Position numbers and translations under genes: made by a program. A stretch of 64,000 bases of DNA. It comes from Chalciporus piperatus. Its lineage: Eukaryota; Basidiomycota; Agaricomycetes; Boletales; Boletaceae. Numbering within the stretch: position 1 is the stretch's first letter; each line of letters opens with the position of its first letter. The stretch is from NCBI GenBank assembly GCA_038093975.1, contig JBBPTG010000004.1, forward strand, positions 62,001-126,000, given 5' to 3'. The notes under the pieces were generated by a model, which was not told the origin of the DNA, made no database searches, and was given only the letters and a program-made list of their open reading frames with translations. This document shows, piece after piece, positions 5,500 to 39,373 of the stretch.

Positions 5500-7282
<1,783 letters not shown>

Positions 7283-9005: not shown

Positions 9006-10336
9006 TTAGACGGTCTTCAGATACGCCTTCACAGTGCTGGGTGCATCTTCCATGAGCGAGTCCTCGGGTTCCCATGACGCCGAATCCTCAGGATATCCTT
9101 CCCAGATCACCAGGAACTCCCGGTCCCCATTCACCTCGCGATGATCCCTAATCGACTCCACCACGAACTTCTCCACCACCTCTGTCTCTGCCTCTTCCTT
9201 GCTCCTAATCCGAAGCACCCGCCTGGATTTATGAGCCCATGCCTTGGGAAGTCGCAGCTTTGGCAATTTCCCCGATGACTCGAAGCGGCGACCAGCGGTT
9301 TTGTTCATGCACTTGCGAATGTACTTGTCCAGCTCGCAGAGCGTGTGCTCGATATCGCAGAGCATCATTGGCAAGCGGTTAGGACCCAGGCCTTTGAATG
9401 TCAAGCCCAACCGCTCGAAATGATCTTCTTGGGATATCTGCATCCATCGAACGAGATCAACTTCCGCCGAGCGGGGAATGTTTTGGCGGAAGCACCTCTG
9501 TAATCCCCTCCTAGACCCGATACCTATTACTACCAAGTCATACTCGGAAAAGTTAACGACATTCGAATATGTCAGATTCAAGACCAGCTGGTAAGCAGTA
9601 AACTCGCCCATGCTCTTGAAAGTCCGCAGATATTCATAGACATCTGCGAGATACTTGGCCTGGCGCAACTGCGCGGGAAGTTCGCGCATCATGACCTCGA
9701 GTAAAGCGAGATGGTTCATGAAACTCTCTGCGAAACCGAGCTCGGGCGCCGGTTTCTGGTATGCACCGGTGTAGATGGAAACGCCGCTGTCATATAATTG
9801 ACGGAGGACCTTCTCGTACTCGGAGCGCTTGTAGGCCTCCCAGGTGAAGGGCTTGATGTTTTTGCGCAGGGCTTCGTACGTCCTGACGTTCGTATACGTG
9901 CTGAAGAGCAAGATCCGAAAGGTGACTTCTTCCGGTCGCTGTGGACCCTTTTCTACGACTTCAGAGACGATATATTGGCTGACCCGATCGAGGACCCGGA
10001 AGGTATTGCAGAATTTGTGGGATTGAAGAATAGGATCGTTCGTCCAACTGTCACGACGGTTGTCAGACAGGAAGTCAAACGTGTGGGCGATCATGCTTAC
10101 GGAGAAGGAGCGCCCGCGCGACGCTTTTCGTCAATGACATGCCTCTCTGCTGCCAGACGCCAAAACGTATCAAAGGCTGGTGTTGGCTCGTACACGTTGT
10201 CGTTGATGGTTACGGTCAAAGGAGGACGGTCAGACTCATCTCCGAAATGGAGCTTGGAGCGCTTGTTGCATGTCGAAGTGACGACCTCGTCCGACTCGAG
10301 TGTAGCAGCGGAGCGTTTCCGAGTCAACTTTGCCAT
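9006..10336 (-). CDS. HMUDK-helical-domain protein with C-terminal chromodomain
   Basis: This is a predicted chromatin protein of 425 residues. It has two exons, 10336-10101 and 10047-9006, with a 53-nt intron whose removal restores AGAPSPWTNDPIL. Residues about 1-45 are basic and disordered. Residues about 50-330 match the helical domain found in 5-hydroxymethyl-dU DNA kinases and related fungal proteins: FDTFWRLAAERHVIDEKRRA, PWTNDPILQSHKFCNTFRVL plus DRVSQYIV, FSTYTNVRTYEAL, SGVSIYTGAYQKPAP, SEYDLVVIGIGSRRGLQRCF and MLCDIEHTLCELDKY. Residues 369-425 form a chromodomain with a plausible methyl-lysine cage at F373, W394 and Y397. There is no P-loop, so the kinase half is absent. Work by Iyer, Aravind and colleagues predicted DNA base hypermodification systems in basidiomycetes using such domains. 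A role in reading or editing modified DNA in H3-methylated chromatin is inference. Confidence 0.8.
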
Positions 10337-10579
10337 GGATGAAGATATTACCTGGAGCTGTGTCAGTTACATGTTTTCACGAAGCTTCAAGGAGACATAC
10401 CGTACTGGTCAGATATTTGATGGTGTAACTTGGCTATCAGCAACTTCTTTTTAAAAAGAAAGAATGTTTGAACTTGGTTTGAACGACCAAGGTCTAAACT
10501 ACGTAACGTCATTTATCCGGAACGCGACGCGTCCAAGTCGGGCTTTCAATGATTTGCTACCGCTTGCACCGAACCGCCG
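10337..10579. promoter_or_regulatory. Shared divergent promoter region with overlapping uORF
   Basis: These 243 bp separate the start codons of the chromodomain gene (minus) and the disordered-protein gene (plus). An 80-codon open frame starting at 10464 overlaps the 10580 start codon in another frame and could act as a uORF for the rightward gene. A loosely palindromic element, GGTTTGAACGACC with flanking repeats, lies near 10475-10495. No TATA box is clear. Confidence 0.45.
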
Positions 10580-12891
10580 ATGGACGGAGGCGAGAAACAT
10601 CGTTTCGTTCAACAATACGTGGAACAACAAAAAGCGTATATACCGCTCTATGCCACCGAGGGTCCTCCAAACGACCGGCATATCCATGACACGCCATCGA
10701 AACTGAAGCCGGCGCTACGAAGTGATGAATTCGGGTTCGATACACCGATCCTTCGTCCCCGAGTGAGCAAGGTGATGATGGATCCTCCTGCTTCGCAACC
10801 CGCGGCACCGAGTCCATCATCACGAAGGCAAGAAAGAAGCGCAGATCCGCCACGTCCGAAACCCCCACCGGTGCCGACGAAGACGAAGGTACTGACCGAA
10901 ATGAACGAGAAGCGCGACAAGTCGGCATCAAAACGGCGCATGACCCCCGCTTTGGATGATACCGACGACGAACGTGCAGCTCGTAAGTCCTTATCATCCC
11001 ATACTGCCTGGACCTGATCGGACGAGCGGAAACAGGACTAGCTGACCGCCGCGAGCGCAAGAGAAAGAAACGCACCATCGTTAACCCCAGGCACGACGAG
11101 TCCACCCCACCGATATCCAAGACCAAGGGGCAGAAAGCAAAGACACCTGCTGCCGCACTGGCGCTTATGTACGGGTTCTCGGCCACGAATGTCACGAAAG
11201 ACAGACTTACGGTCGGTCGGTCGCGTATGAATGTCTTTATCTGTGGTCTCATATACTTTTAGGTGAAACCGGTGCCTTCTCTTGGCGTTTTTAGCAAGGG
11301 GAAGGCGTCCTCGAAGAAGAAAACATCTACGAAAAAGAAATCGAGTAAGATCGTCCTTGTCATCAATAATAATACAATGCTCAACGACCCAGCCTCGAAG
11401 AAAGAAATATTTTCTGAATCTGCGTTTTTGAACAAGTCATCTGCACTGGGCTCCAAAGTCGCAGGAACCGATGACAGCTCCAACGATAGCTCCCTCTCCT
11501 TGGTATCTGATCGCCCTGCTCCCAAGAAACCTCGAATAACAAAAGAAACTCAAGCTCCGTTAGAGAAGGACAAGGAGACGCCCAAAGGCTTAGCTCGTGC
11601 TCCTACCGGATCCGAGATCTGGGACATCGAGTTGGAGAGCAAACTTCCATCGTCGGTCCCGGAGATTCGGAGCGAGCATGGCGCGACAGGTTCCGCGTCG
11701 GTTGCTCTCGATTTCCAAGATACAAAGTGGTCTGCCTCCATTAAGGCGGCAGAGGGACACAGTTACAAGGTGTCAGCCATTCAAGACCAGTCAAAGGGGC
11801 CTTCCATCATCGGCGACAGTTCCGCCTTGGCTAGATCACACTCAGGCGACGACCGTGGGCTCCTCACCCGCGATGCAAACACATCGACGATCCTTCCTTG
11901 CCACTCAGCCTCGCAAGTGGGACGCCTTGTCGCTGGCGTTCCGCCGCCTGCTCCGCGTCTGGTAACATCTAAATATTTCCCTGCCCCGGTATCCGTGCAG
12001 CAGGAGCCCGCCGTTACCGACGTTGATCCCCGGCAGCAGGAATCGAATGGTGGCTGGGACGTGCCTCATCGCATAATCCAGGATCAACGCATCGAGATCC
12101 CTCCTCATCTCCCGCAGATATCGGATAGCGGCTTGGACGCATCTCATCGCCCAATCCCGGAGCAATTTATCCAGGACCCACGGTTGGACCCACGCGCAGG
12201 TCACAGGGTAGATTCCCCGATAACCTCGCTCATCAGCCTCCCTCTGCCCGTGCTAGCATTTCGAACCCCGTACGACTCAATAGCGCCACTCGAATTCTCT
12301 AGTGACGGACCCACGTACGACGACCGATATGTGGACGCGCCACAGGAACCTCGAGTAAGACCAAGCTACCCTGAATATGAACCACAGGTTTGGGGCGCTC
12401 CGTCGTCTGATGTTCCAGAATTCTACGATCCGGGGGAGACACAGGCAGCACTCGAATACCTTCCCGCTGAGGTATGCGAAGACGGGTACGATACGAAAGA
12501 ACCGCAATACGTTTATGGGGAAGAAGAGATATGGCAAGATGACATCCCGGCGATTTTCCAACCGCAGAACGAGGACGACTATGGAGAAAGCTATCTCTCC
12601 GAGCGAGGATTCCCTGTGACCGAAGAAGACCCTGACGGCATGACCGAATACGATCGCGAGACCATCGACGCACCGATTTATTATCAGACAGCGAGCGAAG
12701 ACGACGAATCTTTTGGCGAATCGGAGGACGAGGTGGAGCTGCCGGAGTTTTTAGAGGGCCGAGCCTTGCTCCTGGGTATCTCGGATCAGCGACATCAAAT
12801 GACGCCAAACGTGATGTTGTCTGGGCTCCACCAAGCCGAGATGGACGTTGCGAGTCGACTGCGGGACCACTGGCGACCTGTACGGCTTTAG
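10580..12891 (+). CDS. Large disordered, lysine- and acid-rich protein of unknown function
   Basis: I do not recognise this protein. Three exons (10580-10982, 11036-11211, 11263-12891) join in frame to 735 residues. The N-terminal 190 residues are rich in P, S, K and R. They contain the basic cluster ADRRERKRKKRTIVNPR, a likely nuclear localisation signal, and a small ordered-looking piece, AALALMYGFSATNVTKDRL. A lysine tract (SSKKKTSTKKKSSK) follows. The middle is Ser/Pro-rich with degenerate repeats around DVPHRIIQDQ and DASHRPIPEQ. The C-terminal 250 residues are acidic and Tyr/Pro-rich, ending in a more ordered block with EFLEGRALLLGI and a tail DVASRLRDHWRPVRL. It is divergent from the chromodomain protein, which suggests co-expression and possibly a shared nuclear role. 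That is inference from context only. Confidence 0.72.
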
Positions 12892-37793: not shown

Positions 37794-38240
37794 CGACTCT
37801 TATCGTTCGATTTCAGCTCGATGGCAGAACTATGGCTACACCGCATCCATAAAACCAACATTCAGTTCTGTCCCTCTGTTAGGTTCATGCCTCGCATGTT
37901 TCGTTCATGTCCCCACTTTCCTGCCAATGGCCCCTGCATATCTCTGTGCTCTTTGTTCAACTCGGCATGCATGCACGGTAGTTCTAATTCTTCCCCACAT
38001 TCGCATTTCACAATCACGAACTTTTCAGCATTTTCTCCGCATACAAGTCCAGATTAGCAAACCTGTATTATGATAGTTGCACGCATACACGAGGGTGATA
38101 TCAAAGGGTACCATGAGTATGCATGGGCTCTCGATGAATTCCTTTCCCGTCTATCAAAGCTTCCAAATGCAAAGAGGGATGATCAATGAGAGGACGTAGC
38201 GCTGTTGGCAGTCCTGGACAAACAAGCCAATCGAACTGTA
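37794..38240. other. Convergent 3' flanks of BTB gene and mob1
   Basis: This 447-bp stretch lies between two stop codons. Open frames here do not extend the BTB protein sensibly. No RNA gene or repeat is recognised. Confidence 0.5.
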
Positions 38241-39373
38241 TCACCGTGACTTGTCTTCGGCAAGAATGGCATCATTAAGCTCGTCCAATGGAGCCAGCTC
38301 CTTTTTGTCTACGAGATTGAACTGCGATCCATCGGGATAGATGAGTACGAGGAAAATCAGGATATACGGGAGAAGTACTTCGTTAATGAACAAGAAAAAG
38401 TGGCGATAGCTAGTGTTCAGGTGGGCTGCAGTTGATTGCGATCCAATCAACGTCCTCGAACACGCAGTAGGCCCATGAACGCGACTATACCTTCAATACC
38501 CAAGGCACAAATCTGGTCAAAATGGTTGCTATATATGTGTGCGTAGACGCGGAATAGCCTTCGGACGATAGTTCGGACGGTATCCCGGAAGGTTCGAGGG
38601 AATGGAACGCCTGAGGACGTCAGTAAGCTTGGCGACGTCCAGAAACCGGAAATGCGATACACTGATTATACCTATTTTATTTGGGAAGACATTCTCGTCG
38701 TCTAGAATATTCTGCGCCCAATTCATGAGAGCATCGACGTATTCAGGAGCCGGGAGTTTCGTAGGCCTCTTGTACTTGACGCCATCCTCCCACAAGTACT
38801 CGTAGCTTCGAGCGGATTAGAGAGGCATGGTGAATGCGCAGTAGAGTCTTCTCACCGAGGACCCGCAGACATGATCGGACACTAGTTCATGGAGGTTAGG
38901 TCCGGGACAGAATCGATAGACATCTGATACGTACCTCTTGTACCGTACAGAACTCCGTTACCGTACCATACAGCATATTCAGGTGGTTAAAGAAGTCGAC
39001 AGCTGCGCTTGGGATATGAGAATTCTATGGACATCTTTGCAGATGAAGTGTAGATAGACACACCGTGAACAGCGAGCCACTCATCCAAATCTTCCCCCTC
39101 TGGCAGTTGGACCGCAAGCCTCAAGTTGCCCGATCCCTTGCATGATCGGTCGACATCAGAATACGCTCATCGGTGATGGATCCTAGTGGTGCCTCACCAG
39201 CGTGGCTTCTGCATATTTGCGTAGTTGGTATTGCTTTGTTCCCTCGGGTACGTCCTTGCGCGGCTTGAAGGTTCGAGTCTTTCCTCTATGATAAGGGTCA
39301 CGATTGTGCGGGTTGACCTTGCATCTTATGAATACGTGCGATCGATAACTTACAGACCAAAGAATGAGGACAT
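38241..39373 (-). CDS. mob1: Mob1 kinase activator
   Basis: Mob1 binds and activates NDR/LATS kinases (Dbf2/Sid2) in mitotic exit and septation. Exon 1 (ATG 39373) encodes MSSFFGL. The spliced chain continues GKTRTFKPRKDVPEGTKQYQ and LRKYAEATLGSGNLRLAVQL. PEGEDLDEWLAVHTVDFFNH, the TEFCTVQECPVMSAGPRYEY block and LWEDGVKYKRPTKLPAPEYV come next. DALMNWAQNILDDENVFPNK, FRVYAHIYSNHFDQICALGI and EAHLNTSYRHFFLFINEFNL follow, ending in DELNDAILAEDKSR. The zinc-binding Cys/Cys and His/His pairs are present. The stop is TGA at 38241-38243. The protein is about 215 residues, standard length. Two small N-terminal exons would be missed by simple ORF finding. Confidence 0.93.

Follow-up and report, generated by a model that had tools for sequence, protein, structure and literature searches.

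A bolete chromodomain protein with an HMUDK_hel domain of predicted glycosylase-like fold: a candidate reader of oxidised pyrimidines in heterochromatin

The window analysed here is a stretch of 64,000 nucleotides from Chalciporus piperatus (assembly GCA_038093975.1, contig JBBPTG010000004.1, positions 62,001 to 126,000), in which the minus strand from 10336 to 9006 (window coordinates) encodes a protein that joins an HMUDK_hel domain to a chromodomain and that may read oxidised bases in heterochromatin. The spliced model comprises two exons and a product of 425 residues: exon 1 (10101..10336) supplies residues 1-78 plus the first two bases of codon 79, a GT..AG intron of 53 nucleotides (10048..10100) follows, and exon 2 (9006..10047) completes codon 79 and ends with the stop codon. 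The junction falls inside the sequence block PWTNDPIL, across which orthologues are contiguous. The HMUDK_hel domain (PF18723; residues 52-329) begins in exon 1 at 10183 and has its main part, residues 79-329, in exon 2 (9297..10047), with a Pfam score of 369.7 bits (E 1.3e-110, cut-off 25) over positions 1-279 of the 281 in the profile; the chromodomain (residues 373-423; 9015..9167) scores 48.5 bits. The protein also matches PHROG 2396 (E 3.1e-48), and the HMUDK_hel and PHROG scores put the match far beyond chance. Up to an E value of 1, the Pfam matches include neither the P-loop kinase family PF18748, nor the ADDT family PF18724, nor the helix-hairpin-helix (HhH) glycosylase family PF00730 (HhH-GPD), nor a chromo shadow domain, the Chromo match being single, and no Walker A motif occurs in the sequence. 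Thus an earlier interpretation made from the DNA letters (the sequence-only reading) was right about the length and sequence blocks of the protein, its membership of the HMUDK_hel family and its lack of a P-loop. A profile search of the 35.5 Mb genome matched HMUDK_hel at this one place only.

The absence of a Walker A motif is normal for the HMUDK_hel family, because the phage relatives have no true one either. A P-loop kinase was found in the same protein in none of the eight phage relatives that were read, the sole match to a loose P-loop pattern (GEKPRGK in phage ViI) lacking the final Ser/Thr, and Walker A motifs were found in the HMUDK_hel frames of 0/80 viral loci (L026-L105) and 2/80 bacterial loci (L106-L185, the best 80 of at least 516 confirmed bacterial relatives). 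In these phages Pfam distinguishes three separate families, namely HMUDK_hel, the P-loop kinase HMUDK_HMUD1 (PF18748) and ADDT; in ViI the kinase (38239-38826, 386 bits) lies about 49 kb from HMUDK_hel (87432-88655). PF18748 was matched in five of the eight phage records with HMUDK_hel, the match in PaMx11 being below the cut-off, and was not matched in LuckyBarnes, Nodularia 2AV2 or Kauala; in Kauala a P-loop kinase of another family adjoins the HMUDK_hel gene. A description of the M6-like cassette likewise lists aGPT-Pplase1 and a nucleotide kinase as separate genes (PMC9476957). The idea that the fungal protein is a piece of a kinase that lost its P-loop was therefore rejected, since the phage relatives have no P-loop and those examined carry PF18748 as a separate gene.

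The predicted fold of two relatives (P0001 and P0145) is HhH-glycosylase-like. Confident AlphaFold2 models of an orthologue from Paxillus (pLDDT 90.8) and of a member from Amycolatopsis (pLDDT 93.8) have a helical domain that matches PUGT, DUF2419 and the HhH DNA glycosylases OGG1, AlkA, AGOG and EndoIII, all of these matches being remote (Foldseek E of 0.001 or more). PUGT is gp46 of phage PaMx11, a 5-phosphomethyldeoxyuridine (5-PmdU) glycinyltransferase of the ADDT family (PF18724; PDB 8z2m and 8z2n); structural alignments to it have 8-10% identity, and an hhalign comparison between the HMUDK_hel profile and an alignment of four ADDT sequences (3.4% identity) is too weak to use alone. In our own motif alignment, K150 and K248 of PUGT stand against Q232 and E317 of the window protein. 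Searching the PDB by sequence, with the window protein and PaMx11 gp50 as queries, turned up no solved structure of an HMUDK_hel domain. The models suggest that HMUDK_hel is probably a glycosylase-fold, base-recognising domain and not part of a kinase.

Ten positions, a set derived in this analysis and not a published criterion, are essentially invariant in the 160 bacterial and viral members (80 of each), and the window protein keeps nine of them. Its homology to the HMUDK_hel proteins of thymidine-hypermodifying phages (M6-like, ViI and PaMx11) is full-length, and it differs from them in its fusion to a chromodomain, its intron and the replacement of D236 by Asn (codon 9576..9578). Every one of the 160 bacterial and viral members has Asp at position 236, as do the 34/34 and 51/51 non-fungal rows of two other alignments, but 184 of the 192 fungal-side proteins with a residue there have another one (N 128, S 28, C 18, G 8, T 1, I 1). 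The remaining eight have Asp, and three of these are without an annotated chromodomain and seem to be bacterial. Orthologues from Rickenella and Exidia retain the Asp. The position is changeable (23 changes on a FastTree tree of 181 rows), yet a switch between Asp and not-Asp has to be assumed only 3 times, a pattern such as follows a loss of constraint. Positions 238 and 247 are also changed in the fungal protein, and R96, D99, C316, E317 and K320 are kept in 99-100% of the fungal-side proteins that have a residue there, the last three within the C-terminal signature DIEHTLCELDKYIR (residues 310-323; 9315..9356). The fungal proteins further have E312/H313 with C92, the states of many viral members, whereas all 80 bacterial members have Q/N with T.

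Position 236 belongs to an HhH-like motif (residues 223-239; 9567..9617) recognised from the alignments and from the secondary structure of the Paxillus orthologue. To judge from their i, i+4, i+8 spacing, F228, Q232 and N236 are probably on one face of a helix. By motif register we take F228, which is invariant in the family, to stand where OGG1 and EndoIII have their catalytic Lys, and positions 232 and 236 to correspond to C253 and M257 of OGG1. As 232 and 236 lie one and two helix turns past F228, the change of D236 is probably in the base pocket, and since it is replaced in most fungal members seen while the other invariant residues stay, the fungal domain may, in our view, mainly bind a base and not modify it, catalysis presumably having been lost.

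The same pocket might instead serve an active DNA glycosylase, a fungal counterpart of TDG that is targeted to heterochromatin and removes bases oxidised by TET; D249 would then be the catalytic acid of the HhH-GPD type. Besides the glycosylase-like predicted fold, this proposal has in its favour that D249 is present in 191/192 fungal proteins and mixed elsewhere, and that it follows F228 by 21 residues, close to the 18-20 residues that we take to separate the HhH position from the catalytic Asp in EndoIII, OGG1 and AlkA; either E247 or D249 would be near the expected spacing, in a register that comes from the motif and not from structural superposition. However, the place of the HhH Lys would be held by the invariant Phe if that register is correct, PF00730 is not matched, and the loss of both D236 and E247 would be left unexplained.

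The chromodomain resembles those of HP1/CBX proteins in its fold and aromatic cage. F373, W394 and Y397, which the sequence-only reading had picked out as an intact-looking cage, line up with the Y, W and F of CBX5, an HP1 protein (36.1 bits by phmmer), and an aromatic residue is conserved at them in 184/185, 184/184 and 183/185, respectively, of those among 193 fungal-side proteins that have a residue in the column. HP1 differs in having a chromo shadow domain as well. Acquisition of the chromodomain from a chromovirus was considered and is not supported: four plus-strand genomic copies, presumably from retrotransposons, score 17-18 bits against 36 for CBX5, in a comparison of those four copies that leaves aside the minus-strand copies L002, L006, L007 and L008. 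When the chromodomain piece was searched against the genome at E 0.001, it matched only itself. Retention of this histone cage and of the other invariant residues, together with the loss of D236 in most fungal members seen, points to a reader on chromatin more than to an enzyme of hypermodification.

The neighbourhoods of HMUDK_hel genes in viruses bear on the second of these possibilities, namely that the fungal protein is a component of a eukaryotic DNA hypermodification system, in which HMUDK_hel would present 5-hydroxymethyluracil (5hmU) or 5-hydroxymethylcytosine (5hmC) to a fungal kinase, glycosyltransferase or amino-acid transferase. Within the fetched DNA of the 80 viral loci, the neighbours include thymidylate synthase (57 loci), the kinase (21), a glycosyltransferase (16) and ADDT (10). 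All of these lie on the strand of the HMUDK_hel gene, the kinase at a median gap of -13 bases. Kinase and ADDT co-occur (p 2e-7), and a kinase without a glycosyltransferase is found in 20 loci, a glycosyltransferase without a kinase in 15, and both in one (p 0.056); this either-or pattern hints at a common upstream role of HMUDK_hel in base recognition. Two bacterial proteins, L175:5242-7005 (588 residues) and L177:5218-6969 (584 residues), are fusions of a thymidylate-kinase-like P-loop domain with HMUDK_hel, an arrangement that also suits a hypermodification role. On the other hand, an exon-by-exon search of the fungal genome for the two partner families of the HMUDK_hel phages gave no match to PF18748 or PF18724, although it was positive in 5/8 and 3/4 phage control records, respectively; a gene split by introns could have escaped this search, which covered these two families among the possible partners. 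D236, kept in every bacterial and viral member, is moreover lost in most of the fungal proteins seen. The active hypermodification pathway put forward by the sequence-only reading is thus not supported in this fungus; its other suggestion, a DNA reader, is supported as an option. A hypermodification component is accordingly judged quite unlikely.

The bacterial loci have a different set of neighbours, counted in the same way: a protein like thymidylate synthase (62 of 80), IrrE (61), MazG_C (60), thymidylate synthase itself (31) and a thymidylate-kinase-like protein (14). In one example scanned, the thymidylate synthase-like protein matches the Pfam thymidylate synthase family weakly (18 bits, cut-off 24.3). 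Genes of MazG_C (53/60) and the kinase (12/14) are mostly on the strand of HMUDK_hel, and many others are on the opposite strand (same strand: thymidylate synthase-like 23/62, IrrE 24/61, thymidylate synthase 14/31), so that these genes form more of a conserved neighbourhood than a single operon. Genes for thymidylate synthase-like, MazG+MazG_C, IrrE peptidase and XRE proteins recur around HMUDK_hel in several phyla (for example, L153:3563-6963), and the whole may be a mobile island of defence or base modification. A viral contig (L026:5866-10568) carries a cluster of the bacterial type, with HMUDK_hel, thymidylate synthase, the thymidylate synthase-like protein and IrrE; phages may thus be vehicles of the cluster. 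In the DefensePredictor study, systems validated as acting against phages include a '5-hydroxymethyluracil kinase', which would be PF18723 or PF18748, and a thymidylate synthase domain (PMC13092281).

No neighbours of the bacterial type (thymidylate synthase-like, MazG_C or IrrE) were seen beside the fungal gene among the seven nearby frames that were scanned, of which two match thiolase and five have no match. The two thiolase frames are exon-sized, match the C-terminal domain and are located past the 3' end of the HMUDK_hel gene (6810-7218); on the other side is a divergent gene candidate on the plus strand (10553-12891), whose frame measures 542 residues from stop to stop and has no Pfam match.

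HMUDK_hel is a large family (794 matches at E 0.001), and searches with the window protein and with an orthologue from Cyclocybe gave 411 and 225 matches, respectively, of which the best 120 of each were considered. Among the matches listed, the closest named protein is that of Paxillus ammoniavirescens (78% identity), and the recognised named fungal matches are Agaricomycetes, including Auriculariales, Hymenochaetales and Sistotremastrales; taxonomy was checked for three species, and the other orders are those to which we take the named species to belong. No names from Polyporales or Russulales were noticed among the same matches. The orthologue in Coprinopsis cinerea is CC1G_11207 (P0276), whose deposited model is without the N-terminal FDTFW..AAER stretch, possibly owing to a mis-called first exon. 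In a quick unrooted tree of 92 rows, the 19 fungal rows form one clade (support 99) beside a mainly bacterial group of 51 rows (support 81), with a long-branched Nodularia phage row joining at the same fork; on this tree the nearest kin of the fungal clade are bacterial members, which have the full-length domain. The favoured view is of a host gene of Agaricomycetes, probably acquired horizontally from the bacterial and phage 'aGPT-Pplase clade 1' (HMUDK_hel) family, with a chromodomain joined to it. This architecture is already on record in Pfam columns and in two JGI names (P0109 and P0269, 'alpha-glutamyl/putrescinyl thymine pyrophosphorylase clade 1/Chromo ...'). No prior report of the fungal fusion was found in the titles or abstract openings of the literature searched; Iyer 2013 may mention it.

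The C. piperatus genome was also examined for enzymes that make or remove modified bases. As the sequence-only reading had proposed to check, genes of the TET/JBP family are present, with 25 matches over the cut-off and 36 at E 0.001 or better. Several of them (for example, in L010-L017) have equal or near-equal scores, as expected of transposon-borne copies, and some have in-frame stops; none of the 36 is on the contig of the window (C4). DNA methylases gave five matches, on three contigs. In C. cinerea, oxidised 5-methylcytosine is reported at transposons and centromeres (PMC12730594). No fungal reader of oxidised cytosine was found in the literature searched. One article states that, as of 2022, a mechanism for excising oxidised cytosine had yet to be found in fungi; it also refers to a TDG gene predicted in C. 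cinerea (PMC8889193). The family of TDG (PF03167, UDG) had no match in the C. piperatus genome in an exon-by-exon search that was positive in 13/14 control genomes, a result not taken as evidence of absence. Such a vacancy would suit a heterochromatin-targeted glycosylase, but the miss may be an effect of introns, and C. cinerea has its predicted TDG gene; together with the residue changes described above, this leaves an active glycosylase improbable.

A simpler role would be that of a general architectural protein of heterochromatin, the HhH-fold domain binding ordinary DNA beside nucleosomes methylated at histone H3 lysine 9 (H3K9me). HhH domains commonly bind DNA non-specifically, and the changes at positions 236, 238 and 247 would be compatible with such a function; however, the near-complete conservation of R96, D99, C316, E317 and K320 is more than simple DNA binding seems to need, and this role is considered unlikely.

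The explanation tentatively preferred, at somewhat less than an even chance, is that the protein is a chromatin-targeted reader of HhH fold, possibly a pseudoenzyme, for oxidised pyrimidines in heterochromatin of the H3K9me type. The chromodomain would probably dock on methylated H3 there, and the docked HhH pocket would probably recognise an oxidised pyrimidine (5hmC or 5hmU) produced by the TET/JBP enzymes of transposons. HhH DNA glycosylases work by turning a base out of the helix and into a pocket, and the HMUDK_hel part is predicted to have a fold like theirs. The protein would then read marks on histone and DNA together in silenced transposons, and may have a role in silencing. A bolder form of this proposal, rather doubtful as a whole, is that recognition of H3K9 methylation and of a TET-oxidised pyrimidine, through a disarmed base-flipping pocket, polices transposons that use their own TET against methylation.

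To the architecture already on record, this analysis adds a probable glycosylase fold for the domain, bacterial kin with nucleotide-metabolism and defence-like neighbours, and the loss of an invariant Asp, with the histone cage kept, in most fungal members seen. For the family, database names such as 'nucleotide kinase' and '5-hmdU DNA kinase, helical domain' would need correction. For the Agaricomycetes, which carry transposon-borne TET genes, the protein is a candidate fungal reader of oxidised cytosine, and because an orthologue exists in the model mushroom C. cinerea, the candidate is directly testable.
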